Virus record (IMG/VR): IMGVR_UViG_3300037493_007247
Location: 1 to 43,641 of that record
DNA: 43,641 nt
Origin: a virus
Reading direction: 5' to 3' (one strand)
The notes below the pieces were generated by a model. It was not told the DNA's origin. It searched no databases and saw nothing but the letters and a program-made list of their open reading frames with translations. Both the position numbers and the translations under genes were made by a program. The first letter of the stretch is position 1. Each line of letters opens with the position of its first letter. Positions 2 through 36,165 of this stretch are shown here, piece after piece.

Positions 2-427
2 TCTAAAGAAGTTTTGTTACTAGTTGTACAATCTAAAGATTCATATTTTCCAGAGTCTCTTCAACACAAAATAATCAGAGAGATTGTAAAACAATATGAC
101 TTTGTAAAAGGGTTTTATTCATTACCAAACGCGGGAATCGATACAGTTTTTAATGAAGCTAGGCCTGCATACGAACCTGTTTTATGGGGGTTTGGAACTG
201 ATCGTGCAAAAGCATATAATGCTCAAATCCAAAAAGATGTTTACAGATCAGAACTTAGTGTTAGACAGGATTTCGAGGGTTATGAAATAAAAAGAGCCGA
301 CGAAGACGTCAGCTCTACAAAAGTACGGTTAGCTCTAAAAGAAAATAACCTAAATGAATTTAAAAGACTTATGCCTGAATGTACTTGGAAGTTTTTTGAA
401 GAGCTTACCAAGCATATGAGAAGTTAG
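2..427 (+). CDS. Nucleotidyltransferase (HIGH-type cytidylyl/adenylyltransferase family), C-terminal part
   Basis: The reading frame is open to the left edge, so the start and the N-terminal HxGH nucleotide-binding motif lie outside the window; no ATG was chosen. The visible 140 or so residues end in a block with SSTKVRLAL followed by EFKRLMP. This fits the ISSTxxR-type second motif and C-terminal helix of the cytidylyltransferase-like superfamily (NMN adenylyltransferase NadM and related phage enzymes). Such enzymes transfer AMP or CMP to a phosphorylated substrate; in several large phages the family is linked to NAD synthesis. The exact substrate cannot be read from this fragment. It is the only plus-strand gene in the window and converges on the minus-strand head protein, overlapping its 3' end by 23 nt. 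Family call fairly sure, substrate unknown. Confidence 0.6.
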   Translation, partial: SKEVLLLVVQSKDSYFPESLQHKIIREIVKQYDFVKGFYSLPNAGIDTVFNEARPAYEPVLWGFGTDRAKAYNAQIQKDVYRSELSVRQDFEGYEIKRADEDVSSTKVRLALKENNLNEFKRLMPECTWKFFEELTKHMRS

Positions 428-1367
428 ATGTCTGATTAACAAGATCTCTAACTTCACTCATTTTTTGTTTAGCTCTTGAAGTATAATAAGAATCTTTGTA
501 TTCTTCAGAATCTTTAAGAGCTGAAATATAATCAGCATATGCATCCATTATTCTCTTCATGTGTTGAGCAGCGTCTTGAGTAGTAGCATCGCGACCTTTT
601 TTGTTAACACCTACTTTAACTCTACCGTATCTGTCAACTTCTCCACTCGAAACTGCACCTTTAATCTGAGAAGTAATGGTGTCTATAGCGCTTAAAACTA
701 TTTTTGAAAGTTCATCCTTACCACCAATCTTGGTAGTAAGAATTTCTTTGTATCTTTTAAGATTCTCTTCTTGAAACTTCCTTGGATCAATCAACGCTAT
801 CGCGCCTTCTCTTTGCTTACCTCTTTCCGATTTTACATCAGAAGTTCTAGCAACGTTATCCAAAGGAATTACATAAGCTACATCTGCTAGTTCTGAAATT
901 CTTTTTACGCTGTATAAACCAGTTGCTAAACCAGTTCCTTTGTAATCTTTTCGGATTCCAAATGAACCGCTTCCTGATTTATCTGCTTTCACTCTGCCAC
1001 TAGACCATCTTTCTGTGCTATAACCTAAAAATAAGTTATCTCCAGTTGTAATTGCTAAAAGAGAATTAGCTGGAATAGTACTAGGGTATTCAGAATAAGG
1101 ATTTTCTTTTGCTGTAGTAGTAACATAAAAAACTAAAGAGTTTCCCATATTTCTGTCTTTGTATGCAGTCTTTGGATCCATTGTGATAACTTCATCATCT
1201 GTGATTTTATCCAATGCAAGAGCATAAGTACCATAAATCTTTTTAAGCAAGTTTTTATCAGAGTAAAGGGCTGTAGAAATACTTCTAAGCTTACTTGACT
1301 TTAAGGCCTCATTTATTTCATAGGCCTCTTCAGCTGAAAATTGCTCAAACAGTTTTAGATATTTCAT
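405..1367 (-). CDS. Putative internal head (capsid cargo) protein with N-terminal targeting tag
   Basis: A 320-residue protein starting with ATG at 1367, two bases after the stop of the upstream gene; a TTG six bases earlier is less likely because the ATG gives the tag MKYLKLFEQF at residue 1. The tag is followed by E-I-N-E (17-20) then A21, matching the T4 gp21 prohead-protease rule Leu/Ile-x-Glu. The body is a mixed alpha/beta protein, rich in Lys and Ser near residues 125-150, with helical stretches towards the C-terminus. I recognise no enzyme family. By analogy with T4 IP and Alt proteins it would be packaged in the prohead, trimmed and perhaps injected; this is an inference. It follows the acidic head protein in the same operon and is the last gene before the convergent plus-strand gene. 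Confidence 0.55.
   Translation of the reverse strand: MKYLKLFEQFSAEEAYEINEALKSSKLRSISTALYSDKNLLKKIYGTYALALDKITDDEVITMDPKTAYKDRNMGNSLVFYVTTTAKENPYSEYPSTIPANSLLAITTGDNLFLGYSTERWSSGRVKADKSGSGSFGIRKDYKGTGLATGLYSVKRISELADVAYVIPLDNVARTSDVKSERGKQREGAIALIDPRKFQEENLKRYKEILTTKIGGKDELSKIVLSAIDTITSQIKGAVSSGEVDRYGRVKVGVNKKGRDATTQDAAQHMKRIMDAYADYISALKDSEEYKDSYYTSRAKQKMSEVRDLVNQTSNFSYAW
420..466 (+). terminator. Putative intrinsic terminator of the plus-strand nucleotidyltransferase gene
   Basis: Positions 420-428 (GAAGTTAGA) pair perfectly with 447-455 (TCTAACTTC). After one mismatch the stem continues with 430-433 against 442-445, leaving an 8-nt loop at 434-441. Five bases later comes T6 at 461-466. The TAG stop (425-427) is inside the left arm. 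The structure lies wholly within the coding end of the opposing gene. The stem is AT-rich and the spacer before the T-tract is long, so efficiency is uncertain. Confidence 0.45.
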
Positions 1368-1369
1368 GA

Positions 1370-2431
1370 TCAATTATTTTTTCTTGATTCGGCGATGAAT
1401 CTGTCAAAGCTCATAATGAATCTTTCACCTACAAGTTTTCCAGCCTCCTTTTCAATTGATTCAGGCTCGCCCATATCAACGATTTCTTTTTCAATTTCTT
1501 CAGAATCATCCCCAGAGATTGGCTTCATTTCTGCTTCACCGCCCTCTCCGGCCTTAGGAGCTTCTCCTTTAACATCTTTATCGATAGGTTGCTCATCGGT
1601 TACAAGCTCTTCGCCTTCACCTTTAACTGATTTAGGTTTGCCCATAGCCATGGTATCACCAGCAATTCCAGCTGCGGTTTCTGAACCATCTCCTCCGGTT
1701 TTGATTTCGGGGTCACCACCTTCTCCAGATTTTGAAGCAGCACCTTTAACCTCTGTATCGATTGGTTGCTCATCAGTTACAAGCTTTTCGCCATCTCCTT
1801 CTACGTCTGTTGGTTCACCCATTGTAACTATTTCATCTTCAATTTCAGAAGCAGTATCATTTGCTTCTTCAACTTCTTCATCTTCTTCGTCATCATCGTC
1901 ATCTTCAGTGTCTGCTTCGGAATCCTCGTCTTCATCATCTTCCTCTTCGTCATCTTCCTCTTCGTCATCTTCCTCTTCAGTTTCATCCTCTTCACTAACC
2001 TTAGATTCTCCTTGAATTTCTATTGCTGCAATCTCTTCGTCCTCTTCCTCTTCTGCGGGTGAAGGAACATCGTCAGATTCACCATCAGGAGCCGGATATC
2101 CTTCGGGATTAGGATTATTAAGATCATTAATTGATTCACCCAAAGATGATGTGAGTCTTCCTATAAGAGCACCATAGTCATCACCTTCTTTCTTATCAAG
2201 AAGACCATCAACTACTTTTTGTGCTTCAGCTTGGTCAAACTTATCACCAAATGATTTTTTCAACACAGCAAAGGCGTATTCTTTAAATTGATCATCGCTT
2301 TTGATTTCAGCCTCTTGAAGCTTTAGATAAGCCTCTTCTCCGAGTTTTTTAATCATCTCAACTTTTTCATTAGCGGCCTTTTCATCCGCTCTTTTTTGAA
2401 TAAACTGAGAAAACTTTTTTAATGTTTCCAT
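1370..2431 (-). CDS. Highly acidic repeat-containing putative head core/internal protein
   Basis: A 353-residue protein. Residues 1-110 are mostly helical and begin METLKKFSQFI, like the tags of the neighbouring cargo proteins. Two possible prohead-protease sites follow (L-G-E at 30-32, L-Q-E|A at 38-41). Residues about 127-190 are almost all Asp/Glu. Residues 200-335 hold two full copies and one partial copy of a 57-59-residue repeat (starts M204, M263, M320) with the shared core LVTDEQPID. The last residues, SFDRFIAES (341-349), again resemble a targeting tag with an I-A-E|S site. T4 head-core proteins such as gp67 are also acidic and cut by gp21, so a core, scaffold or packaged role is plausible but unproven. 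A late-promoter-like motif lies about 30 nt upstream. Confidence 0.5.
   Translation of the reverse strand: METLKKFSQFIQKRADEKAANEKVEMIKKLGEEAYLKLQEAEIKSDDQFKEYAFAVLKKSFGDKFDQAEAQKVVDGLLDKKEGDDYGALIGRLTSSLGESINDLNNPNPEGYPAPDGESDDVPSPAEEEEDEEIAAIEIQGESKVSEEDETEEEDDEEEDDEEEDDEDEDSEADTEDDDDDEEDEEVEEANDTASEIEDEIVTMGEPTDVEGDGEKLVTDEQPIDTEVKGAASKSGEGGDPEIKTGGDGSETAAGIAGDTMAMGKPKSVKGEGEELVTDEQPIDKDVKGEAPKAGEGGEAEMKPISGDDSEEIEKEIVDMGEPESIEKEAGKLVGERFIMSFDRFIAESRKNN
1420..1834 (-). repeat. Tandem 57-59-codon coding repeats inside the acidic head protein gene
   Basis: Two full units (starting near 1822 and 1645) and a shortened third (near 1474) share coding sequence, for example the stretch encoding LVTDEQPID at about 1755-1785 and again at about 1580-1610. 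The third unit leads into the C-terminal tag-like segment. Confidence 0.75.
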
Positions 2432-2459
2432 CCTAATTTTTTATTTTATGCTTTTACGA

Positions 2460-2475
2460 TTTTTTTATATATCAA
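2460..2475 (-). promoter_or_regulatory. Late-promoter-like motif upstream of the acidic head protein
   Basis: On the minus strand this reads TTGATATATAAAAAAA. The TATATAAA core is about 30 nt before the ATG at 2431. The same motif precedes five other genes or gene groups in the window and resembles, without being identical to, the T4 late promoter TATAAATA. Confidence 0.55.
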
Positions 2476-2485
2476 CACTTTTTTC

Positions 2486-3994
2486 TTAAAATTTCACCTT
2501 TAATGTTTTGTAAGGAAACTTTTGATCTTCATAAATTTGGATCCTGGCCTCACCGTGTTTATAGAGATAATTTTTCCACATTCTATCTCCATCATGCCAA
2601 CACATATCATCAACAAAATCAATAATGTTTAAGATTTGTTTTGAATAGTGTTTTCTAAGACCTCTTCCGATAGATTGACGTATGATTACCTCGGATTTAA
2701 AAGATTCTGTAAAAAATATGTTGTGTATGTTTTTGATTGATATACCGGTAGAGAAAGTACCATATGAGGCAACAATAATCACATTGTTGTTCTTTTCCAT
2801 TTTTTTCTTATATGATTCTCTAATCTGTGAATCAGTACCACCATCCACATAGTAAACCTCTTTGTCATCTAGTTGTCTTAAATCTTTATATAAAGATTCT
2901 CCGTGCTCAATTCTATAAAAAAGAACAAGCGAATTTTGTGTTGTTTTAGAGATTGTTTTAACAATAAAATCTTTGCGTGCTTTATTTTCAATAATAAAGT
3001 TTTGTTCCAATCCAAAGAGCTTCATTCTGTCTTCTGCGCGTTTAGATAAAAAACTAAACGCCGCCTTTTGTTCATCGGATGCATAATCCATTTGAATTAT
3101 AGAAACTTTGCACTGACTAATGTGGCCCTGCTCCTGTAAAAAGTTTGCGCTTACATTTGTGATAAGGGGACCCATAGCTGACATCAAAGTCAATCTATCA
3201 ACGGTGCCTTCTTTTGGAATAGTACCAGACAGACCAAATCGATAATCACAGTGCCAACACATATCCATAATGGTTTTAATGGAATTAGATTTTGCCTTAT
3301 GTGTCTCATCAACCATTACAACGTCAAACTGAGCAAAATAATCTGCCTCTTTTTTTACCAGTGATTGATAGGTTCCTACTACAATATTACTACTGGGTTT
3401 AATCTTTGCCCCAGAATAAATCTGTTGTACTTTAAGTTTGATTCTTTCTTTGTGATTATATGTATCAAAATCCTCAGTGGCTTGTAAAACAAGAGACACG
3501 TTTGGTACAATAAAAAGAATCTTTTTCTTTTCAAGTTTTTCTAATAGGTAAGAGATTACTAAGAAACTTATAAGAGTTTTTCCGGCTGATGTAGCAAGCT
3601 CTGCAAGACATCTTTTGTATCTCAGAATTTTATACGCGGCGTCAATTTGATAATCCCTAGGCTTAATCTCGGGGTGATCTTTAAAAAGATCCATTGCCCA
3701 CTCAGTAAACTCCTTTTCAGAGATAACTTGATCAAAAAGATCAAGGAGCCCTTTTATTTTAAACTCAAAACTAAATTCTTTACAGATATCAGAAACGGTT
3801 TTCCACAAACCAGAAGGTATCTTGTTACCTTTAACATAAGAAACGTTTCCGTCCCAAAGTTTCTTTTTAACCAATGGGTGAAATCTCCATCCATCAATCT
3901 TTTTGGTCAAAGAAATCTTTAGCTGCTCGTACTCTTCGTCAGTGCATTCTTCAATTATTATAAACTTCTTATCTTCTGAAATCTGTAGATCCAC
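2486..3994 (-). CDS. uvsW: UvsW-type DNA helicase (superfamily 2)
   Basis: A 502-residue SF2 helicase. Walker A is ATSAGKT at 134-140, the DExH box is DETH at 229-232, motif III is LSGT near 255-258, and motif VI is RQSIGRGLRKH at 439-449. The length and the N-terminal region before the RecA-like domains fit T4 UvsW, which unwinds branched DNA and R-loops and shifts the phage from origin-dependent to recombination-dependent replication. The start is GTG, two bases after the stop of uvsY. Operon order gp32, primase, small ORF, uvsY, uvsW groups single-strand binding, priming and recombination. No missing catalytic residue was seen. Family assignment is strong. Confidence 0.92.
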   Translation of the reverse strand: MDLQISEDKKFIIIEECTDEEYEQLKISLTKKIDGWRFHPLVKKKLWDGNVSYVKGNKIPSGLWKTVSDICKEFSFEFKIKGLLDLFDQVISEKEFTEWAMDLFKDHPEIKPRDYQIDAAYKILRYKRCLAELATSAGKTLISFLVISYLLEKLEKKKILFIVPNVSLVLQATEDFDTYNHKERIKLKVQQIYSGAKIKPSSNIVVGTYQSLVKKEADYFAQFDVVMVDETHKAKSNSIKTIMDMCWHCDYRFGLSGTIPKEGTVDRLTLMSAMGPLITNVSANFLQEQGHISQCKVSIIQMDYASDEQKAAFSFLSKRAEDRMKLFGLEQNFIIENKARKDFIVKTISKTTQNSLVLFYRIEHGESLYKDLRQLDDKEVYYVDGGTDSQIRESYKKKMEKNNNVIIVASYGTFSTGISIKNIHNIFFTESFKSEVIIRQSIGRGLRKHYSKQILNIIDFVDDMCWHDGDRMWKNYLYKHGEARIQIYEDQKFPYKTLKVKF

Positions 3995-3995
3995 T

Positions 3996-4451
3996 TTATA
4001 GAGTGTCGTTAGTGTGCAATGTTATTCGATTTTTTATGGCAAAAGCCATATTATCGAGGGTTCGAATACACTCAGAGTAGAATTCTAAATGTGTTTCTAA
4101 TATATTTATCTGTCTCTTTAGGGGCATTAAATCAGTCTTTACAAAACGATCTTTTTCACCACCAGTAAGCTTAATATCATAGTCAAGAGTATAGAATCTA
4201 AAACGAGTTTTATAAAAAGATTCGTAATCACCATTTCTTCTGTATAGATTACCCTTCATGTCGGAAATTTTATCGAGCAACATCTGTCTATACGATAACA
4301 TCAACACTTGAGTTTCCGATAAAAGTGTAATATCCTTAATATTTCTAACTATCTCAGTTATTTTTAAGCTCCATACATCTCTATCCTGTTTTAATCTGCT
4401 TTCTAAAGTAGCAGTCTTCTCCTCTATCCCTTCAATTGTAAACTCTGACAT
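3996..4451 (-). CDS. uvsY: UvsY-like recombination mediator
   Basis: A 151-residue helical protein; the ATG at 4451 is preferred to a TTG one codon upstream because it overlaps the upstream TGA as TGATG. The C-terminal half has the pattern seen in T4 UvsY: a short charged loop, a conserved Asp/Lys helix (DRFVKTDLMPLK), then a long helix ending in DNMAFAIKNR, comparable with the T4 segment ending in GFAIKH. UvsY loads the UvsX recombinase onto gp32-coated single-stranded DNA. Position between primase and uvsW, in an operon headed by gp32, supports the call. Sequence similarity is only moderate, so the name rests on both motif and context. Confidence 0.7.
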   Translation of the reverse strand: MSEFTIEGIEEKTATLESRLKQDRDVWSLKITEIVRNIKDITLLSETQVLMLSYRQMLLDKISDMKGNLYRRNGDYESFYKTRFRFYTLDYDIKLTGGEKDRFVKTDLMPLKRQINILETHLEFYSECIRTLDNMAFAIKNRITLHTNDTL

Positions 4452-4675
4452 CAAAACAAATTTTTCTTATTACTTATATCCTTTTTATTCAAATAGGTTA
4501 TTTTTTTCGGCTTTTTGGTATTTTTTACAGGTGTATCCATTTTGAATTTTAACCCATTATATTCTAATCCAATCTCATCAAATGGATCAATCAGAAGTTT
4601 GTATCTTTTACTTCTGTTTTCATTTTCTTCATAAAATTTGTCAAGCTCTTCCACAAAAAAATCTAAATCATACAT
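4451..4675 (-). CDS. Small protein of unknown function in the replication operon
   Basis: A 74-residue protein: acidic helical N-terminal half, very Lys/Asn-rich C-terminal tail. Its start overlaps the end of the primase gene by 8 nt and its TGA overlaps the uvsY ATG, so it is translationally embedded between two recognisable genes. I do not recognise the family. A basic tail could bind nucleic acid, but that is speculation. Confidence 0.6.
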   Translation of the reverse strand: MYDLDFFVEELDKFYEENENRSKRYKLLIDPFDEIGLEYNGLKFKMDTPVKNTKKPKKITYLNKKDISNKKNLF

Positions 4676-5741
4676 ATATTATATCTCTTGGATCGTTAGT
4701 AAAATATTGATTTACATGTTTGATGGCTGGGTTTTTAAGGTTATAACAAACCCCAACCAAATCATTCATATCTTTAATCTTTTGAGATTTGAGTTTAAAG
4801 TCTCCAAGAAACTTGGACCACATAAAAACATTTTTTCTCATCTTTAGCTTCTCAATCATTTTTTGTTTTCCTTTAATATCGTTATCAAAGAAGTATCTTA
4901 CCGTTGGAAGCTCATCAAAATTTAAAATGTTCTTTGCAACACCAGTAAGTGCAATAGAATTATGAACAAAGAAAGAATCTAAAGGCCCTTCGAAAACAGT
5001 AAAATCGACTGAAAGATTGACATGCAAAATACCAAAAAGCATTGATATTTTATTTAATCTATCCAGCTCTTCTTCGCTTTCAATTTCAAGCTCTTTACCA
5101 ATCATATCATACATCTTTTGCAAGTTGTAGCTTAAATATTTAGCAGAACGAGTATTGGTTAGATCTCGGGTTTGAAATCCCACCACTTTATCATTAGAGG
5201 TAAGATTAAAAATATAGAGCATCTTTTTTCGTGGATCATATGCAAACCTATCAAGGTTTTTTATCTGTAATCTACTTTTAAGATATGGATATGCTCTATG
5301 AGTATGCTCGTTAATAGTGTAAATATTTAGTTTTGCAAAAAGCTCATCTTTAGAAACTGCAAGAGAGTTTAAAACTCGAAAGAGTTCAAACTCTAGATTA
5401 TCCGCAGTTGCATGATTCTTTTTGTTTTCTTTGATGTAATCTATGATTTGAAATCTTTGATCACCTTCAAAGTTAGCACTAAAATCAGAAAGGAAGGAAT
5501 CTAAATCTTTATGTGTTGAACAGTTGTAACAATGGTAGTTCAACCCACTCCAATATAGATTACCTCTTTTCTTTCTGAGTGAAGAAGAAGAATCCCCACA
5601 ATACGGACAAGCAAAGTTGAGCCGCTGCAGGGATTCTCTTATAAACCGCTTTTCACGGTCTGAATGTACTTGATTTAAAACCGTTTGTACTTTCTGAGTT
5701 ATCTGAGATTTGAGATGTGGATTAACGAAGCTTTCGTTCAT
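4668..5741 (-). CDS. 61: DNA primase, zinc-finger plus TOPRIM (gp61-like)
   Basis: A 357-residue primase. The ATG at 5741 overlaps the TGA of gp32 (TGATG); a GTG one codon earlier is less likely. The N-terminal zinc finger has C45-x2-C48 and C71-x2-C74 (CPYCGD and CYNCS). The TOPRIM part shows the acidic motif FEGPLDS (E251, with D255 nearby) and the second motif FFDNDIK (D286, D288). Such enzymes make RNA primers for lagging-strand synthesis with the gp41 helicase, in complex with gp32. The size agrees with T4 gp61 (about 340 residues). There is no helicase domain, so a separate replicative helicase must be elsewhere in the genome. Confidence 0.88.
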   Translation of the reverse strand: MNESFVNPHLKSQITQKVQTVLNQVHSDREKRFIRESLQRLNFACPYCGDSSSSLRKKRGNLYWSGLNYHCYNCSTHKDLDSFLSDFSANFEGDQRFQIIDYIKENKKNHATADNLEFELFRVLNSLAVSKDELFAKLNIYTINEHTHRAYPYLKSRLQIKNLDRFAYDPRKKMLYIFNLTSNDKVVGFQTRDLTNTRSAKYLSYNLQKMYDMIGKELEIESEEELDRLNKISMLFGILHVNLSVDFTVFEGPLDSFFVHNSIALTGVAKNILNFDELPTVRYFFDNDIKGKQKMIEKLKMRKNVFMWSKFLGDFKLKSQKIKDMNDLVGVCYNLKNPAIKHVNQYFTNDPRDIIYV

Positions 5742-6619
5742 CACAAATCTAGACCCTCAAGAAAATCGTTTAAATCAGAGCTTTCGCTTTCTACTGATGT
5801 AGTCTTTTCTTTAACCTCTGCCTTAGGAGCTGAAGTGCTTGTTGAAGGAGAGGACACTACAGCTTTTGCAGAACCTGGTGATCTGTATTGTTGTAACAGA
5901 CCTTCAACTTTATTTCGGGTGTCATCGTCCCATTTCTTGTAATCAAATGCTGACAAATCAGGTGCTTCACTAAGAAGATCCATAACTTTCTGCTTATCTC
6001 CAGCGTTATTTTCGATCTCTTTGCCACTAACCGTCATTGCACTTGTCTTACCTTGGAACTTAGAAGAATCATATGCATTATATCCTCCCTGTTTAGTAAT
6101 TACCAACTCAAAGTTCTTTCCTTCAAAGATATCAAAAACCTGAGTAGGTGTATCAAACTGTGGATTTAATTCCTCATCAATCTTTTGTTTTACCTTATAA
6201 CCATACTTAAAGACTTTAACCTTGCCTTCCATGTCTGGATTATTAGGATCTTTAATGATTTGAAGCAAGGAGTAAAAAACTTCACGTCTCTTAAGATTTT
6301 CGCTCATCTTACGATCGACAGCTGAATCAGAGTTACGAAGTTTGAAAAACAAATCTTGTACTGGACAAGAGTCGCCTACAGTAGAAGGAGAGTCATAGTA
6401 AGAACCATTACCATTTCCATCTTCCAACCAATAGATGTACTTTCGAACAATTGATTTGCTTGGGTTTTTAGGGTTAGGAACGAAACGAACTAATGCTCGA
6501 TAGGTTCCATCTTTTCCCTGATCTGCGGTGGGTTTGTAAAGATCACTACCACCTGATTCCTTGGGTTTGTATGTTTCAATGTCACCAACACCCAAATTAA
6601 AAATATCGAATTCTGCCAT
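5741..6619 (-). CDS. 32: Single-stranded DNA-binding protein gp32
   Basis: A 292-residue protein with the gp32 layout: short basic N-terminal arm for cooperative binding, OB-fold core (about 35-225) with the typical DPNNPDMEGKVKVFKYG and YDSSKF elements, a low-complexity Ser/Pro/Thr linker (about 250-275), and an acidic C-terminal tip ending SDLNDFLEGLDL, used for contacts with other replication proteins. T4 gp32 binds zinc through three Cys and one His. Here only one cysteine of that region remains (C85, in SCPVQ), so the zinc site appears to be lost. The leader upstream has a hairpin and repeats that may mediate autogenous control. Confidence 0.9.
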   Translation of the reverse strand: MAEFDIFNLGVGDIETYKPKESGGSDLYKPTADQGKDGTYRALVRFVPNPKNPSKSIVRKYIYWLEDGNGNGSYYDSPSTVGDSCPVQDLFFKLRNSDSAVDRKMSENLKRREVFYSLLQIIKDPNNPDMEGKVKVFKYGYKVKQKIDEELNPQFDTPTQVFDIFEGKNFELVITKQGGYNAYDSSKFQGKTSAMTVSGKEIENNAGDKQKVMDLLSEAPDLSAFDYKKWDDDTRNKVEGLLQQYRSPGSAKAVVSSPSTSTSAPKAEVKEKTTSVESESSDLNDFLEGLDL

Positions 6620-6680
6620 TTTATTTTGCCTTTTTTAAAAATTATTTTGCCTCGTTAATCCATGTTAGTTGCCTAACATA
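6620..6680 (-). promoter_or_regulatory. Structured gp32 mRNA leader (hairpin plus A/U-rich repeat region)
   Basis: On the minus strand a 7-bp hairpin (arms 6679-6673 and 6668-6662) closes on the tetraloop GCAA, a GNRA-type loop. It is followed by an unstructured A/U-rich leader with a direct repeat AGGCAAAATAA at 6652-6642 and 6631-6621, the second copy ending 1 nt before the ATG. T4 gp32 represses its own translation by binding from a 5' pseudoknot across an A/U-rich region to the start codon. The layout here is similar, although I see no pseudoknot pairing. The hairpin abuts the promoter box, so the mRNA 5' end may fall within it. Confidence 0.5.
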
Positions 6681-6695
6681 CTTTATATATTTCAA
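6681..6695 (-). promoter_or_regulatory. Late-promoter-like motif upstream of gp32
   Basis: The minus strand reads TTGAAATATATAAAG, with the TATATAAA core about 60 nt before the gp32 ATG and directly before the leader hairpin. It matches the motif found at five other sites, with two extra bases between TTGA and the core. Confidence 0.5.
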
Positions 6696-6707
6696 CTTTT
6701 AGATGTT

Positions 6708-7724
6708 TCATTTTTTAATTTCACCCTCATATTGATAGAGATACTGAACATTTACAGGTCGAGAATATTTTTCTGGTAACTTCATTGTGTAGTTCACAGC
6801 GACTTCTTGTTCATTATAAAGTGATTTACTTCTTAGTGGTATGTTTGGATTTTCCTCATACGCCCAATCCTTGTAACCCAGTTCTTCAAATCTTTTCTTT
6901 ATCGCTTCGTTATAATAATATGAGATGCTTCGTACACGTCTTTGAATATCTGATCTGGAGACGTTTTGAGTATTGTTTACATTCTCATTTGCATGCATAT
7001 ATTGGATATAACACAGTTTAGGAACGTGCACCATACGGGTACCCAGGAAAGTTCTTATGATCAATTCATAATCATCAGCAATGCTTAACCTTCTATTGTG
7101 GGCGCCGATTCTAAAATAAGTATCTCTTTCCCATGCTCTAAAGTGATTTGGCACACCAACTATGTGACGCATAGTTTTTGGATTGATTTTTTGTTGATCA
7201 CAAACATCCATTTCATATCCATTATAAATGTCCTTATAATAGTTACCATAGTTTAAGGCGAATCCCTGCTCATATTTTAAGCATTCACCTGTTTCTAAGA
7301 TTTCGGTGCAATCGGAGTATGAAAATCCTGCATCTGGAAACTGTCTAAAAGATTCCACCATAAGCTCCATTGCATAGTATGTGAGCTCATCATCATGATC
7401 CATTTCCACAAGATACTTACCATTACATAGTGTTGCTGCTCTATATTTCGATTCGCCTACAATACCACCGCTTTTTTTATGAAATGAGTATACTTGAACA
7501 CGTGGATCTTTGCTTGCAATCTCCTCGGCAATCTTAAGGGTTTTTCCTTTATCTGTTGAATCATCAACTATCACCCATTCCCAGTTTGTGTAGGTTTGCT
7601 GAGCAATTGAACGGTATGTTCTCCAAAGTTTTTGGCCCGTATTAAATGTAGGAGTGAACAAGCTAACCAATGGTTCCACTTTTAGATAATCATCATCAAA
7701 GTTTCTATTTAAGATATAGTACAT
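6708..7724 (-). CDS. Family 2 glycosyltransferase (GT-A fold), probably the C-terminal half of a split tandem enzyme
   Basis: A 338-residue protein by the first ATG. GT-A features: SLFTPTFNTG (21-30), the nucleotide-sugar motif VIVDDSTD (51-58), and the metal-binding DHDD at 109-112. It probably transfers a sugar from a nucleotide donor onto phage DNA, a phage protein or a host glycan; the acceptor cannot be seen. The frame stays open upstream of this ATG for 69 more codons back to the TAA of the preceding glycosyltransferase. The ATG at 7724 may therefore be an internal Met of a longer protein (see the entry for 7725-7934). There is no Shine-Dalgarno sequence before it. Confidence 0.8.
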   Translation of the reverse strand: MYYILNRNFDDDYLKVEPLVSLFTPTFNTGQKLWRTYRSIAQQTYTNWEWVIVDDSTDKGKTLKIAEEIASKDPRVQVYSFHKKSGGIVGESKYRAATLCNGKYLVEMDHDDELTYYAMELMVESFRQFPDAGFSYSDCTEILETGECLKYEQGFALNYGNYYKDIYNGYEMDVCDQQKINPKTMRHIVGVPNHFRAWERDTYFRIGAHNRRLSIADDYELIIRTFLGTRMVHVPKLCYIQYMHANENVNNTQNVSRSDIQRRVRSISYYYNEAIKKRFEELGYKDWAYEENPNIPLRSKSLYNEQEVAVNYTMKLPEKYSRPVNVQYLYQYEGEIKK

Positions 7725-7934
7725 TGACGAGTTATAGCTTGATTCACCGGCCTCAATATCAGATTTTTCACTGTTTACATTGATCCATCTTCTTCTAAAA
7801 TCAAATGGAAGTTTGTACAGGTTTGGAAACTTCTCAGGCGAGGTATCAAACGTTATAATTCCATCTGGATTTAGCTTTGCAATATCCTCTAAAACGGTGT
7901 TATCATCAAGCTTACAGACAAAATTAAGCTTATC
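7725..7934 (-). pseudogene. In-frame open linker between two glycosyltransferases (nonsense split or readthrough region)
   Basis: This 210-nt stretch has no stop in the frame shared by the upstream glycosyltransferase stop (TAA at 7937-7935) and the downstream ATG (7724). It translates to protein-like sequence, including KLDDNTVLEDIAKLNPDG and KLPFDFRRRWINV. It holds no ATG, GTG or TTG in that frame, so it can be translated only by passing the TAA. The simplest reading is that a bifunctional glycosyltransferase was split by one nonsense codon. Readthrough or a base-calling error are alternatives. Confidence 0.6.
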
Positions 7935-8645
7935 TTATTCGTAATCAGCCTGCTTAATTGATCTGAAATCTTTTGTTTCTCTACCATAAACCAGAATTTT
8001 AGGCAGAGAAACATAAACTACTTGTTTTTCAATAAAATTATAGTAACACAGAATCTTATCAATGAACAAAAACTTCTCTGGAGTTGATGCATAGATCTTT
8101 TCAATCATTAATCCATCTCCGGCATAATGCATAGGGTATCTTTCATCACCTAGCACAGAAACTGTGTGTACAAACTGAGCCTGATCAATTCCCTGATATT
8201 TTGTGTTTTCAGGTTTTGCTTCTCTAAACTGTAATCCTGTAAAATCTTTTCCTCCAACAAATTGATTGAAAACAACCACCTCTTTATCAGGGTTATCTTT
8301 GATAGCTTTAGTAAACTCAGCAAAGAAATCCACATGTAAAATGTTATCATCATCTAGTGCGTAAATCCAATCCGAAGGATTACTCAATTCAATAACTCTA
8401 TTCAATTGTGCCTTTCCTACAACATTAGTTGGATCATTCACAAAAATACCGTGAACCCAACTTTTAGTTTGAAAACTATTGATAATCTCACTTGGGATAC
8501 TTAGCAATGAATGTGTATCAAATGCTATAATCCATTCAAAATCGATATCTGACGTTTCTATCTTTTTAAGAGAATCTTCGATCGATTTTTCAATCTGCGC
8601 TAGATTCTCATAGCGCGTGCATGGGGTAACAATTTTTAATTTCAT
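7935..8645 (-). CDS. Glycosyltransferase-like protein (GT-A fold), probable N-terminal half of a tandem enzyme
   Basis: A 236-residue protein opening with the GT-A strand KLKIVTPCTR, with IYALDDDN (94-101) as the DxD-type metal site and a second conserved region GDGLMIEK near residue 178. Its ATG overlaps the TGA of the co-chaperonin gene (ATGA), indicating translational coupling. It ends at TAA, after which the same frame continues open into the next glycosyltransferase. It may modify a surface glycan, phage DNA or a virion protein; no acceptor is evident. Confidence 0.7.
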   Translation of the reverse strand: MKLKIVTPCTRYENLAQIEKSIEDSLKKIETSDIDFEWIIAFDTHSLLSIPSEIINSFQTKSWVHGIFVNDPTNVVGKAQLNRVIELSNPSDWIYALDDDNILHVDFFAEFTKAIKDNPDKEVVVFNQFVGGKDFTGLQFREAKPENTKYQGIDQAQFVHTVSVLGDERYPMHYAGDGLMIEKIYASTPEKFLFIDKILCYYNFIEKQVVYVSLPKILVYGRETKDFRSIKQADYE

Positions 8646-8986
8646 AACTCAACTGCTGTTATTCTTCTTGATTGTAAAACTAGATACTCTTGATCTTCAT
8701 ACTGCATAAAAACTCCTCCTACCCATTCAAAGTGAACTTTAGAACCGACTTTGACCTCTTCGGTTAGATAATCTTCTTCGGTGTCTGCTCCAATTGCCAC
8801 CACAGTTCCTGTATACGGAGGATCTGGCATGCTTGGAGCTTTATCTCTAATCTTATTGACTTTGTAAATGATGCCAGCTTCAGTGACACCTGGATCCTTA
8901 TCTTGAATAATAATGACTTTGCCTGGGGTTGTCTTTAACATGTTTCTTATATCTAGAGAAAAAACTTTGTTTCCAAATTGAAACAT
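8642..8986 (-). CDS. 31: Phage co-chaperonin (gp31/GroES-like)
   Basis: A 114-residue protein. After a short N-terminal extension (1-20) comes a GroES-type beta-barrel: KVIIIQDKDP, then a mobile-loop-like region (EAGIIYKVNKIRDKAPSMPD, 36-55), then GTVVAIG, VKVGSKVHFEW and a closing strand near the C-terminus. T4 gp31 replaces host GroES so that GroEL can fold the major capsid protein gp23; the same role is inferred here. Size agrees with gp31 (111 residues). It is followed, with an ATGA overlap, by the glycosyltransferases. Confidence 0.8.
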   Translation of the reverse strand: MFQFGNKVFSLDIRNMLKTTPGKVIIIQDKDPGVTEAGIIYKVNKIRDKAPSMPDPPYTGTVVAIGADTEEDYLTEEVKVGSKVHFEWVGGVFMQYEDQEYLVLQSRRITAVEL

Positions 8987-9030
8987 TTCTCAACAGTGGC
9001 AGTATAACATTTAACTATTTTTTAGTAGGA

Positions 9031-9687
9031 CTATATTACTTTCTTTAAGGCATTACAAATAAAGTAAGAATCCACTAGATCATCAATGGGCTTGAGAACC
9101 TTTTCATTCTTATCAATCAGGGAAGAGCTCTGAGCGGAACAAAACTTCCAAAAATCATTTTCCCTGAGAGAGACTTCTTGGGAGTCTAGAAAGAAAGAAA
9201 GCATCATGTTCTTGTTTGCATTTCCTTTACCTGCATTCTTTTTAATATAAGAAGGAGTCATAACTTTAAACTTATCCCCTGGTTTTAAATTCTTGTAAAT
9301 AGCGTATCTCAAAATAGTATTAAACATAATAAGATCTATAAAGCTATTTCCTTTTGATGCATAACTGAATCCTTCTAAACCGTAACAAACACTCTTGTTA
9401 TCAAAGTTAAACATATTTCCAATTAAACAGGACATGTCCTCTGCATCTTCAATTTTTTGGATCTGATCCTCCTCATAAATTTTGGAACCTTTATGACGCG
9501 AATACCTTTCTATTATAACTCCAGGTAAATCAGAGTACAGCCCCATTCCAGGAGGAAGAGGTTTGTTAGCTGCCCTTCCACCATCATTTACAAAAGAATA
9601 AAATTGATATGTTTCGTTATAAGTGTCAAAAATACAGACAGCGGGACTGTTAATTGAAAAGTCGATTCCGACTAAAAAGTCAAACAT
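9031..9687 (-). CDS. RuvC-like (RNase H-fold) nuclease, putative Holliday-junction resolvase
   Basis: A 218-residue protein with the spacing of acidic residues of the RuvC/RNase H-like fold: D9 in VGIDFSINSPAV, E105 in YGLEGFSYASKG, and an acidic C-terminal helix PIDDLVDSYF (D202, D203, D206). A conserved NAGKGNANK segment (151-159) precedes the last catalytic region. RuvC-like enzymes cut branched DNA during packaging and recombination; in T4 that role is played by the unrelated endonuclease VII (gp49). The ATG overlaps the TAA of the upstream cargo gene by 1 nt. The 45-nt gap after it, before the co-chaperonin ATG, shows no convincing signal. Confidence 0.65.
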   Translation of the reverse strand: MFDFLVGIDFSINSPAVCIFDTYNETYQFYSFVNDGGRAANKPLPPGMGLYSDLPGVIIERYSRHKGSKIYEEDQIQKIEDAEDMSCLIGNMFNFDNKSVCYGLEGFSYASKGNSFIDLIMFNTILRYAIYKNLKPGDKFKVMTPSYIKKNAGKGNANKNMMLSFFLDSQEVSLRENDFWKFCSAQSSSLIDKNEKVLKPIDDLVDSYFICNALKKVI

Positions 9688-10046
9688 TAAATCTTACCGC
9701 CAAGAGATGCACCAAGTGCTGCTCCGACTAATCTAGAGGTTAACAAATCATAGAGTACACCCTTTTCAACCCCTAACGCTTTTGCGACTGCTTGACCGAC
9801 TGTTTTACCAAGAGCAAATCCAGTTAGACCGCCTAAGATTGATCCAATAATTCCCTCATTTGTCAATTCTTGATTCAGATCTTCAATTGATTTTCCAGAT
9901 GCAAGATAATCTGCCACAAAAGCATCAACTGCCTCTTGAATTGCAGTTTCATCACTTTCACTTAATTGGTATGATTCTTTAAGAGCAGATTCAAAAGTCT
10001 CTAAACTTTCATCTTTGTTATTAATAAATTCGACAAAACTCTTCAT
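9687..10046 (-). CDS. Small putative capsid cargo protein with a glycine-zipper hydrophobic domain
   Basis: A 119-residue protein in two parts. Residues 1-65 are acidic and helical and begin MKSFVEFIN, close to the T4 internal-protein tag MKTYQEFIAE. They carry several Leu/Ile-x-Glu sites followed by small residues (L22-K-E|S, L28-S-E|S, I36-Q-E|A). Residues 66-119 hold two glycine-zipper segments (GSILGGLTGFALGKTVG and LVGAALGASLGGK), typical of membrane-inserting or pore-forming helices. If packaged and trimmed, this would leave a small hydrophobic peptide inside the head, possibly for membrane passage of DNA or cargo. A holin is an alternative, but the tag and the neighbours argue for a head protein. 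Confidence 0.5.
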   Translation of the reverse strand: MKSFVEFINNKDESLETFESALKESYQLSESDETAIQEAVDAFVADYLASGKSIEDLNQELTNEGIIGSILGGLTGFALGKTVGQAVAKALGVEKGVLYDLLTSRLVGAALGASLGGKI

Positions 10047-10047
10047 A

Positions 10048-10647
10048 TCAAATACTTTTTTTCATTGTGCTGTTAATAGCTGTTAAATCGTCTTTAAGAT
10101 TTTTTGTAGTGTACTTTCCTTTAGCAATTGTCTCCCATACCTTCTTAGCTTTGCTGTAATTAGCTCTAATCGCAGCACCTGCATCTTGCCAAAACTTATT
10201 TATTATTTTGCTTGATGTTTCATACTGTTCTAGAGCGGTATCAAATGGTGTACCGGTAATAGTCGAAGCCATTTCTTCAGGGCTATCGGCGTTTGTTACT
10301 AAATACTCGAGTGAACTTATCCAAGGATTTTTTGTTATGTCAAATCCAGCAACACCAGCTGCTCCATAGATCAACATTCTTCCGCCTACTATATCTAGAA
10401 GTTCTCTATTAGTAAGATTATAGTTACTACGCCTTGATACAAAATCAATTCCAGTTTTAGAGCCAACTGAGCTAGTAGCATTAGCCCAAGCTTCCCAGTG
10501 ATCTGAAGGTCTAGAGTTTTCCCAGTATCCATCACTTAGTTGACCCGTGATTTCTTCGTCCCACAGATTTTTTTGTGAAAGACTAGAAAAAACGATCTTG
10601 CCCTCATTTATGGCTTCAAAATTTTCAAACAGCTTAATATATTTCAT
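10048..10647 (-). CDS. Putative internal head (capsid cargo) protein
   Basis: A 199-residue protein starting MKYIKLFENF, with an ideal prohead-protease site A-I-N-E|G at residues 12-16. The rest is Trp- and Asn-rich with helical segments (for example 130-199) and has no motif I recognise. The TGA is 1 nt before the ATG of the glycine-zipper gene. Its first 24 coding bases are identical to those of the next upstream gene (ADP-ribosyltransferase-like). The tag strongly suggests packaging; the function once packaged is unknown. Confidence 0.55.
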   Translation of the reverse strand: MKYIKLFENFEAINEGKIVFSSLSQKNLWDEEITGQLSDGYWENSRPSDHWEAWANATSSVGSKTGIDFVSRRSNYNLTNRELLDIVGGRMLIYGAAGVAGFDITKNPWISSLEYLVTNADSPEEMASTITGTPFDTALEQYETSSKIINKFWQDAGAAIRANYSKAKKVWETIAKGKYTTKNLKDDLTAINSTMKKSI

Positions 10648-10648
10648 T
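10624..10648 (-). repeat. 25-nt exact direct repeat, copy A (cargo tag coding region)
   Basis: Identical to 11062-11086. It covers the ATG and the first eight codons (MKYIKLFE) of the 199-residue cargo gene plus one base upstream. Flanking sequence differs at once. A related, imperfect copy (about 20 of 23 bases) starts the gene at 1367. Confidence 0.9.
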
Positions 10649-10665
10649 ATGTTTTGTTGTTTTAA

Positions 10666-11085
10666 TTAATAAGGTGTGACTTTGACAATGGCGCTGTATG
10701 GAATAACACCCCTGTATTCTAATGTATCTCCTTCGTTGTTTTGTACGTTCTTATCTATAGATAGCTTTGTTTGATTTAATTTAGACGCATCAATATGTAG
10801 TACGATGATGTTGTCAATATAACTATCGGGTACCATGTCTGATGCCTCAGCATACGATCCAGCAACATCAATATCGGTAGCTAAGTAAACTAATCCCGGT
10901 TCGGAGTCTTCCCACGCTTTCTTGCTCTTAGTTGTATCTAATCCATCCCGCTTTATCTTAACCAGTAGTGGCTTATATGTTGCGTGATATAGAATGCTTG
11001 GAACTTTAGCCTCATTGATGAGATCTTCATTCACCAAATACATGGATTCGTTCACAAATTCTTCAAACAGCTTAATATATTTCAT
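10666..11085 (-). CDS. ADP-ribosyltransferase-like protein with capsid-targeting tag
   Basis: A 139-residue protein. The ATG at 11085 is chosen over an in-frame TTG at 11112, because that TTG is part of the promoter motif and the ATG gives the tag MKYIKLFEEF. A prohead-protease site L-I-N-E|A ends at E25. The mature part has an ADP-ribosyltransferase-like layout: SILYHATYKPLL (H34), GLVYLATDIDVAGSYA (Y67), and EYRGVIPYSAI with E123, consistent with an H-Y-E triad. T4 packages the ADP-ribosyltransferase Alt in its head and injects it to modify host RNA polymerase. This could be a much smaller counterpart, but the target and activity are inferred. A KptA-type RNA phosphotransferase-like fold is an alternative. 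Confidence 0.6.
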   Translation of the reverse strand: MKYIKLFEEFVNESMYLVNEDLINEAKVPSILYHATYKPLLVKIKRDGLDTTKSKKAWEDSEPGLVYLATDIDVAGSYAEASDMVPDSYIDNIIVLHIDASKLNQTKLSIDKNVQNNEGDTLEYRGVIPYSAIVKVTPY

Positions 11086-11119: not shown

Positions 11120-11656
11120 CTACCTTAGTAAAAAGCTCGTTGTATACAAATCAAAAGTTTTAATATCACTGGTGTTTTCAGCAAAGTTTAAATCCAGGGA
11201 TCCCATTGTTTGAAATAGAACTCTTTTCATCTCAACTGTAACATAAGTTGCGCCATTAGAATCAAGTATTTGTAATCTTAAACCTTCGGGTAGGTATGTA
11301 TTCTTATTCTGAAATTCGTAGTAGTAATCGAAGATATCAAACATCATCCAGTAATTGATAAATCCATCAAACAATCTCATAGAAACTGTTATAGTTTTAT
11401 CAAATAGTTCCTGTTTGTTCACAGAAGATCTAAACTGTCTCTTTAAACCTCCAAGATCCACCTGTTCTACTGGTGTATACTCGGCGCTTGGAAAATTGAC
11501 GCTTTGTATTGAGTAGTTTATAAGATCAATCGATTTTGTAACAAGGTTTCCAGGGATTTTGTTCAAATATGGATCATATCTATCTGATACCTCTTTGGGT
11601 ACAAATGTCCTTGGAAAGTTAAATATGAATTGATTACTACGTGCTGATTGTAACAT
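11120..11656 (-). CDS. Putative tail structural protein
   Basis: A 178-residue, mostly beta-structured protein with many aromatic residues (for example MMFDIFDYYYEF near 103-114). It has a long-loop/beta arrangement and a C-terminal strand ending in SFLLR. It is the last gene of the tail operon and starts with its ATG overlapping the TAA of the preceding gene by 1 nt. Size and the central beta pattern recall tail-tube-type proteins (T4 gp19 is 163 residues), but no diagnostic motif is seen, so only a virion role is proposed. Confidence 0.45.
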   Translation of the reverse strand: MLQSARSNQFIFNFPRTFVPKEVSDRYDPYLNKIPGNLVTKSIDLINYSIQSVNFPSAEYTPVEQVDLGGLKRQFRSSVNKQELFDKTITVSMRLFDGFINYWMMFDIFDYYYEFQNKNTYLPEGLRLQILDSNGATYVTVEMKRVLFQTMGSLDLNFAENTSDIKTFDLYTTSFLLR

Positions 11657-35376: not shown

Positions 35377-36165
35377 TTAAGCTGTAAAGAAATAATCTGT
35401 CCCCTCGTCAGTTTTTATTTCTTCAGTGATTGCAGCAATCTCATCATCTCCTTCAGATTTATAGAGATCATAATTAATTGTAATACCTCCAGGAAGGTTA
35501 TAATTAAATGTACCCATAACTCTTGCTAGTTGCTGTTTACATCTTGCAACTACATATCTAAGGAAAATTTCATCTCCAAATAAACTACAATCATCAAGTT
35601 TAGTGTATACCTGAAATACAACCGTGTAATCAGGCTTTTCACCTAAAAATCTAAACTTATGATTCAAATAATTAAAAGTGTAGGACATTGCATTTTGTAA
35701 AACTTGACGTGCACTATCAATAAAATACTCATTAATTACAAAATACATTAAGTTCTCTGATGCAATACCTTCTCCACCTCCGTAATATGAATTATAAACC
35801 ATTTTATCAACCGCAAAATCAGTATCACTTGAGTTAAAGCTGTAGTTGCTGAATCCACCATCTTCACCACTAAACCTACTTAGCTGAAACACTGCGTTAA
35901 CTGCCCACACTGCATTTGGTAAGGTAATCTCCCCTGTTTTTCTAAAAGCTTCAGTGTTTTTGTTATACTCTTCAGGCGTTAATGCAAGGAATTTTTCCTC
36001 TACTGAGTACTCATAATGCTTATAAAACCATTGTTTGGCTCTTTCAATAATACGAGCAATCTCTTTTTTAGGAATGTTATAAGGTAATTGACAAGAAACT
36101 GTAAGTTCTTGAGTGACCTCGTTGATAAAATTATCAAGACATCTTATTTCAGCGGGTGTAGCCAT
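35377..36165 (-). CDS. Putative neck or tail-associated structural protein
   Basis: A 262-residue protein: helical N-terminus (EIARIIERAKQWFYKHYEYS, 50-69), a Gly/Tyr-rich middle (YNSYYGGGEG), and a C-terminal part with LRYVVARCKQQLARVMGTF and an acidic tail. Proteins of this size and make-up occur as neck or connector components in T4-like phages (gp14 has 256 residues), but the match is not good enough to name it. It is encoded between the amidoligase-like gene and gp25. Confidence 0.45.
   Translation of the reverse strand: MATPAEIRCLDNFINEVTQELTVSCQLPYNIPKKEIARIIERAKQWFYKHYEYSVEEKFLALTPEEYNKNTEAFRKTGEITLPNAVWAVNAVFQLSRFSGEDGGFSNYSFNSSDTDFAVDKMVYNSYYGGGEGIASENLMYFVINEYFIDSARQVLQNAMSYTFNYLNHKFRFLGEKPDYTVVFQVYTKLDDCSLFGDEIFLRYVVARCKQQLARVMGTFNYNLPGGITINYDLYKSEGDDEIAAITEEIKTDEGTDYFFTA

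Follow-up and report, generated by a model that had tools for sequence, protein, structure and literature searches.

A shared N-terminal leader in T4-related giant phages as a putative capsid targeting and cleavage signal on unrelated proteins

RESULTS

The DNA analyzed here is a 43,641-nucleotide viral sequence (IMG/VR virus record IMGVR_UViG_3300037493_007247, positions 1 to 43,641; hereafter the window) in which three minus-strand genes begin with MKY[IL]KLFExF and two more begin with a shorter related form. We propose, with a probability of roughly 0.86, that this shared N terminus, called the tag below, is a T4-type capsid targeting sequence (CTS) that has been expanded into a large cargo-loading system. 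Sequence comparison strongly indicates targeting and cleavage of the tagged proteins, and their injection is plausible. The proposal is supported by enrichment of the tag, an adjacent L/I-x-E motif, a protease in relatives, recovery of T4 substrates, the boundary between leader and body, and an ADP-ribosyltransferase (ART) fold among the putative cargo. An earlier note, made from the letters of the window, had read the five genes as a putative capsid-cargo system, and each sequence-level prediction of that reading that could be tested held.

The 5′ ends of the five genes (1367, 10647, 11085, 10046, and 2431), their N termini, and their L/I-x-E sites were all as the earlier note had given them; every protein carries such a site, not in each case at the end of the leader. 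With a scoring matrix trained only on tags from other contigs, the five genes scored 21.2, 19.2, 12.0, 10.7, and 8.0, and shuffled N termini are expected to give, per 39 genes, 0.03 at 12 or above, 0.11 at 10 or above, and 0.48 at 8 or above. Given the last of these values, the N terminus of the gene at 1370-2431 (score, 8.0) is weak when taken alone. A tail-connector gene in the window (35377-36165) also scores 10.1. We conclude that the tags of the window are not due to chance, as the three long-tag genes and the gene at 9687-10046 lie far above shuffled N termini.

Outside the window, a degenerate DNA pattern for MK[YH]IKLFExF matched at least 120 stretches of viral contigs, including those of very divergent phages, and no match was obtained with a control pattern in which the residues were permuted. 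A search of 85,000 genomes of bacteria and archaea found the tag pattern in 5 stretches on 4 contigs, all from metagenome-assembled genomes; just one of these contigs is large, and it carries an S77 protease gene of its own and is most simply a misbinned phage. The viral matches listed contained 147 reading frames with the tag, and the bodies of about 104 of these were mutually unrelated, such that one leader precedes about 104 different bodies. The genome-wide enrichment that the earlier note had called for was found in LR756500, a 462-kb uncultured phage whose gene order matches that of the window, with most window genes matched in order. There the tag, mostly in the variant MK[YF]I..YxxF[LI]xE, starts 25 of 686 genes and none of 1,801 internal methionines (P = 8e-15). 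The earlier note's figure of at least four such proteins was an underestimate, as one relative has 25 tagged genes.

Synonymous codon agreement among the LR756500 tags was at background (0.726 versus 0.743 expected), and the DNA upstream of the tagged genes showed no resemblance. We conclude that the tag is conserved as a peptide and not as DNA; recent DNA duplication as its cause was rejected on codon usage. A TATATAA late-promoter-like box showed weak enrichment in the DNA preceding tagged genes (18% versus 10%; P = 0.017), and no enrichment was seen for the T4 box TATAAATA.

The tag pattern fixes nothing past residue 10, and residues 11 to 13 of the tagged proteins are most often [ILV]-N-E. 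At residues 11 to 16, [LIV]xE was present in 60% of the 104 tagged proteins with unrelated bodies, compared to 14% of untagged neighbors and 7% of shuffles (P ~ 2e-22), which places an L/I-x-E-type motif at or just past the leader; at residues 31 to 50, [LIV]NE was found in 0 of the 104. Moreover, [LIV]NE appeared at residues 12 to 20 in 10 of the 49 proteins that lack the site at residues 11 to 13, and 1 of the 55 others had a second site (P = 0.003). Displaced sites of this kind are expected of a cleavage requirement and not of a fixed helix.

The CTS of T4 is the first ten residues of internal protein IPIII, in which targeting depends mainly on residues 4 and 7 and processing depends on residues 8 and 10; L/I-X-E is the motif after which gp21 cuts (PMC9026906). 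These four residues align with F7, F10, [ILV]11, and E13 of the tag, so that the tag is a short leader that includes the counterparts of both targeting residues. When a matrix trained on huge-phage tags alone was applied to the 284 genes of T4, gp22, IPIII, IPII, and gp61.1 ranked first to fourth, and gp21 is known to cleave the first three. The hypothetical protein gp61.1 (NC_000866 18966-19130) starts MKTFKEFIKE and is predicted from its sequence to be an overlooked additional head protein of T4.

The 43.6-kb window record contains no head module, protease gene, or capsid gene and is a fragment, and evidence for a protease therefore comes from relatives. Of 28 long contigs with the tag, 21 encode an S77 (gp21-family) protease (20 by Pfam and one more by a family profile), and the 7 in which it was not found also lacked a T4-type portal gene; gp23 was found in 22 of the 28. 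The protease is present in two relatives collinear with the window, LR756500 and the L019 contig. In the phages examined, its reading frame is 500 to 750 amino acids long, has a C terminus like the end of T4 gp22, and adjoins gp23. We conclude that the S77 protease gene of these tag phages is apparently a protease-scaffold fusion. In L163-L181 and in LR756500 (226725-228623), the protease is joined to a long coiled-coil domain whose last residues, RFNK/RFKK, resemble those of T4 gp22. The gp23 proteins of 20 tag phages keep LxE in or near the N-terminal arm, which is not claimed as the mature site. A gp23-like peptide, NVNGIGSVKLPGDP, occurs in two small proteins, at LR756500 265261-265644 and L033 18955-19176, whose C termini are tag-like (KFIKTFNEFKTEYK; LLSFDQFLD).

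The tagged gene at 10666-11085 (minus strand; ATG at 11085) encodes a 139-residue protein that starts MKYIKLFEEF and has sites at VNE13/S, VNE20/D, and INE25/A, giving a predicted propeptide at 11011-11085. In the AlphaFold model, residues 31 to 139 (10669-10995) form a domain with a predicted local distance difference test (pLDDT) score of mostly 80 to 95. Foldseek matched the model best to Tpt1/KptA (E = 9e-6), and structural alignment supported an ART fold (VIA Z 12.8; root mean square deviation of 2.0 to 2.7 over 91 to 95 residues). The two-lobed Tpt1/KptA architecture was not found, as the body of about 112 residues aligns only to chain residues ~81 to 180. Since the N-terminal lobe is missing, identification as Tpt1 was rejected despite the nearest structural match. 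We conclude from the model that the gene product is a predicted ADP-ribosyltransferase-fold protein.

The models also separate leader from body. The pLDDT was below 50 for residues 1 to 25 of the ART-fold protein and residues 1 to 17 of the protein encoded at 405-1367, and folded bodies follow in both. The models thus predict a disordered leader and then a folded body, with the boundary close to the proposed cut. Two viral homologues of the ART-fold protein, 80% identical overall, start with MIRLKDLLKE instead; both lie on small contigs, too short to show a protease gene. The gene next to one of them starts MIRLIDLLREA, and LR756508 has three neighboring genes with a start like MIRLKDLLKE plus an S77 protease. 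We conclude that the tag was exchanged on an ART-fold protein. Another common N terminus, MKKSELQQIIREEI, was seen at L190 1266-1622 and 2676-2924 and is possibly a further tag type.

The tagged gene at 405-1367 (minus strand) encodes a 320-residue protein starting MKYLKLFEQF, with a site at EINE20/A and a predicted propeptide at 1308-1367. In relatives, its body is the C-terminal domain of proteins of 460 to 890 amino acids, which mostly start with a short tag, and the junction separates domains of these larger proteins. Among the homologues, E20 is invariant in 10 of 10 and A21 is kept in at least 90%, and the residue preceding E20 varies. The protein had no PHROG or Pfam match, and its structure model (predicted template modeling score, 0.50) matched no PDB fold at an E value of 0.001 or below.

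The gene at 1370-2431 (minus strand) encodes an acidic 353-residue protein, probably a prohead-core component, with a METLKKFSQF start and an LQE/A site. Its conserved domain, residues 38 to 98 (2138-2320), shares 52 to 69% identity with longer proteins from other phages that have the tag; these proteins start MKPIKKFS, MAQLNKIKSFKSF, or similar. Its C terminus is also tag-like (MSFDRFIAES, approximately 1373-1420) and has the top C-terminal tag score in the window. Neither 405-1373 nor 1370-2431 gave a useful match in searches of PHROG, Pfam, and phages.

Two further tagged genes lie beside the ART-fold gene on the same strand. The gene at 9687-10046 encodes a short-tag protein of 119 residues (MKSFVEFINN start; LKE/S and IQE/A sites) in which a nearly invariant NE64/G65 directly precedes a glycine-zipper hydrophobic region (9690-9854). 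Close homologues were found in about 18 other loci, with starts of the MKTF..[YF][LI].E type. The gene at 10048-10647 encodes a 199-residue protein starting MKYIKLFENFEAINE15/G (predicted propeptide, 10603-10647). A 75-residue segment of it (residues 18 to 92) is similar to gp666 of Bacillus phage G (38% identity; E = 4e-6), a protein without the tag, and a search of viral contigs found no relatives.

These three genes occupy an interval bordered by a RuvC-like resolvase gene (9031-9687, minus strand; phrog_159, E = 1e-10) and a tail-tube-like gene (11120-11656, minus strand), the latter with a weak PHROG tail-tube match and 47% identity to its LR756500 counterpart. The number of genes in the interval is 1, 3, 4, or 9, depending on the phage; essentially all of them have a tag-like start, and the near-constant member is the glycine-zipper gene, the single conserved one in most relatives. 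Matches of other tagged bodies include Acb1/2H phosphoesterase, GNAT, cytidylyltransferase, and DUF5661; a PADLOC scan of the cargo gave only scattered weak matches, which were not used. A tagged 420-residue protein of LR756500 (267941-269206), with homologues in L021-L034, lies near a core-protein gene and has an EKLDG motif that resembles nucleotidyltransferase/ligase active sites.

The presence of UvsW, UvsY, a gp61-like primase, Cpn10, and T4-type tail genes indicates from sequence that the window phage belongs among the T4-related giants. UvsW of the window is 59% identical to that of LR756500, and IMG/VR contigs such as that of L019 (72%) are nearer. Two family-2-like glycosyltransferase genes (6708-8645), the second below the Pfam cutoff, lie with the Cpn10 gene (8642-8986) between gp32 and the RuvC-like gene. 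At 14-427, a cytidylyltransferase-like fragment lies on the strand opposite to that of nearly every other window gene. The corresponding sequence in LR756500 makes up the C-terminal part of a 653-residue protein encoded on the common strand.

DISCUSSION

We propose the following pathway. During prohead assembly, a short amphipathic leader (MK[YH]IKLFExF or MKTFxxFLxE) would bind the scaffold core and thereby carry its protein into the prohead. A gp21-family protease, fused to a gp22-like scaffold domain, would then cut after the [LIV]-x-E that ends the leader or lies near it. Once freed, the proteins would stay alongside the DNA within the head, and probably at least a part of them would enter the cell at infection. 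For the window, the cargo would comprise the ART-fold protein, an acidic core-like protein, a hydrophobic peptide with a glycine zipper, and two proteins without an assigned fold.

Several observations weigh against this pathway. Packaging and cleavage are deduced from comparisons, and protease and capsid genes were not found in the window record itself. Three tag contigs of more than 180 kb (G006, G009, and G010), presumably fragments, show no clear head module. Recovery of T4 substrates was incomplete, as IPI ranked 44th and Alt ranked 31st with the tag matrix. Finally, about 40% of the tagged proteins lack [LIV]xE at residues 11 to 16, and about 29% lack it anywhere within residues 11 to 30.

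The strongest rival shares the loading step. The tag could direct proteins to the prohead core, where they would mainly build the core or scaffold and size the head, with little being injected. Consistent with such a role, the acidic 1370-2431 family resembles a core protein, the T4 core proteins gp22, gp67, and gp68 are cut by gp21 (PMC9026906), and the LINE sequence is also used by the N terminus of gp23. However, many tagged bodies are enzymes of host-takeover or counterdefense kinds (ART fold, Acb1/2H, GNAT, and cytidylyltransferase), and the tagged set differs between close relatives, as expected of accessory cargo and not of a scaffold. We consider a mainly structural role unlikely, at about one chance in four. 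Another rival is that the N terminus localizes proteins to a membrane, a replication compartment, or the tail and that L-x-E is merely part of a helix. An amphipathic leader could indeed bind many partners, but localization would not lead one to expect the recovery of gp22, IPIII, and IPII in T4, the displaced sites, the association with a protease, or the invariant E20 at a domain boundary, and we regard it as improbable. That the shared start is a functionless by-product of recent 5′ duplication or recombination is very improbable, for although the first 24 coding bases are identical between window genes 10048 and 10666, the codon and upstream comparisons in LR756500 and the occurrence of the tag in very divergent phages speak against it.

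Loading of cargo through a T4-type CTS thus remains our preferred explanation. A more far-reaching form of it, which we hold tentatively and at slightly less than even odds, is a lineage-specific address code by which dozens of unrelated effectors per genome, from well over 100 families, would be loaded and injected, with the address refitted when a cargo gene enters a phage lineage that has another code and with tag-like C termini working too.

Like the T4 internal proteins, the tagged proteins combine a short N-terminal leader with unrelated bodies, and the tag phages likewise have a gp21-family protease and a gp23-type capsid. Both leaders place a hydrophobic or aromatic pair before [ILV]-x-E (Y4..F7-I8-A-E10 in T4 and F7..F10-[ILV]11-x-E13 in the tag). 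Unlike the T4 CTS, the dominant huge-phage tag is three residues longer and depends on the lineage (MK[YH]IKLFExF or MKYIKEYEEF). Moreover, T4 has three internal proteins whereas one huge-phage genome has about 25 tagged genes, and tag-like C termini and the fusion of the protease to a gp22-like domain set the tag phages apart. T4 Alt is also a packaged ADP-ribosyltransferase with a removable leader, as predicted for the ART-fold protein of the window, but it is 682 residues long instead of 139, the fold of the window protein is closest to Tpt1/KptA, and the Alt leader, MELITELFDE, differs in sequence from the tag.

Inner-head proteins of phiKZ/SPN3US-type phages are trimmed by a distant gp21 relative, similarly after a short motif ending in Glu, but their propeptides are mostly longer than 100 residues, and the available part of that source describes no short tag common to unrelated proteins (PMC5694885). 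Polyvalent and MuF/portal-fused effectors include head-packaged ART, 2H, and Nudix proteins proposed to be injected (Iyer and colleagues; PMC9503650); their loading was deduced from fusion to, or neighborhood of, head proteins, whereas the tag phages carry a short transferable tag. The accessible portions of jumbo-phage reviews describe no such tag, and the tag strings were not found in literature text, which did not cover subscription papers and is not proof of absence.

Apart from T4 and the phiKZ group, the head contents of giant phages are, to our knowledge, poorly known. A tag that can be read from sequence turns those contents into a list, which here has 25 entries of predicted cargo for a single phage of 462 kb and, across metagenomes, about 104 families that are unrelated to one another, among them an ADP-ribosyltransferase fold and Acb1-like candidates for action against the cyclic oligonucleotide-based antiphage signaling system (CBASS). 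The tag predicts exact new N termini for proteomics and would supply a leader with which to load chosen proteins into very large capsids. With the tag, the proteins that such a phage packages in its virion and may inject into the cell could be predicted from its genome.

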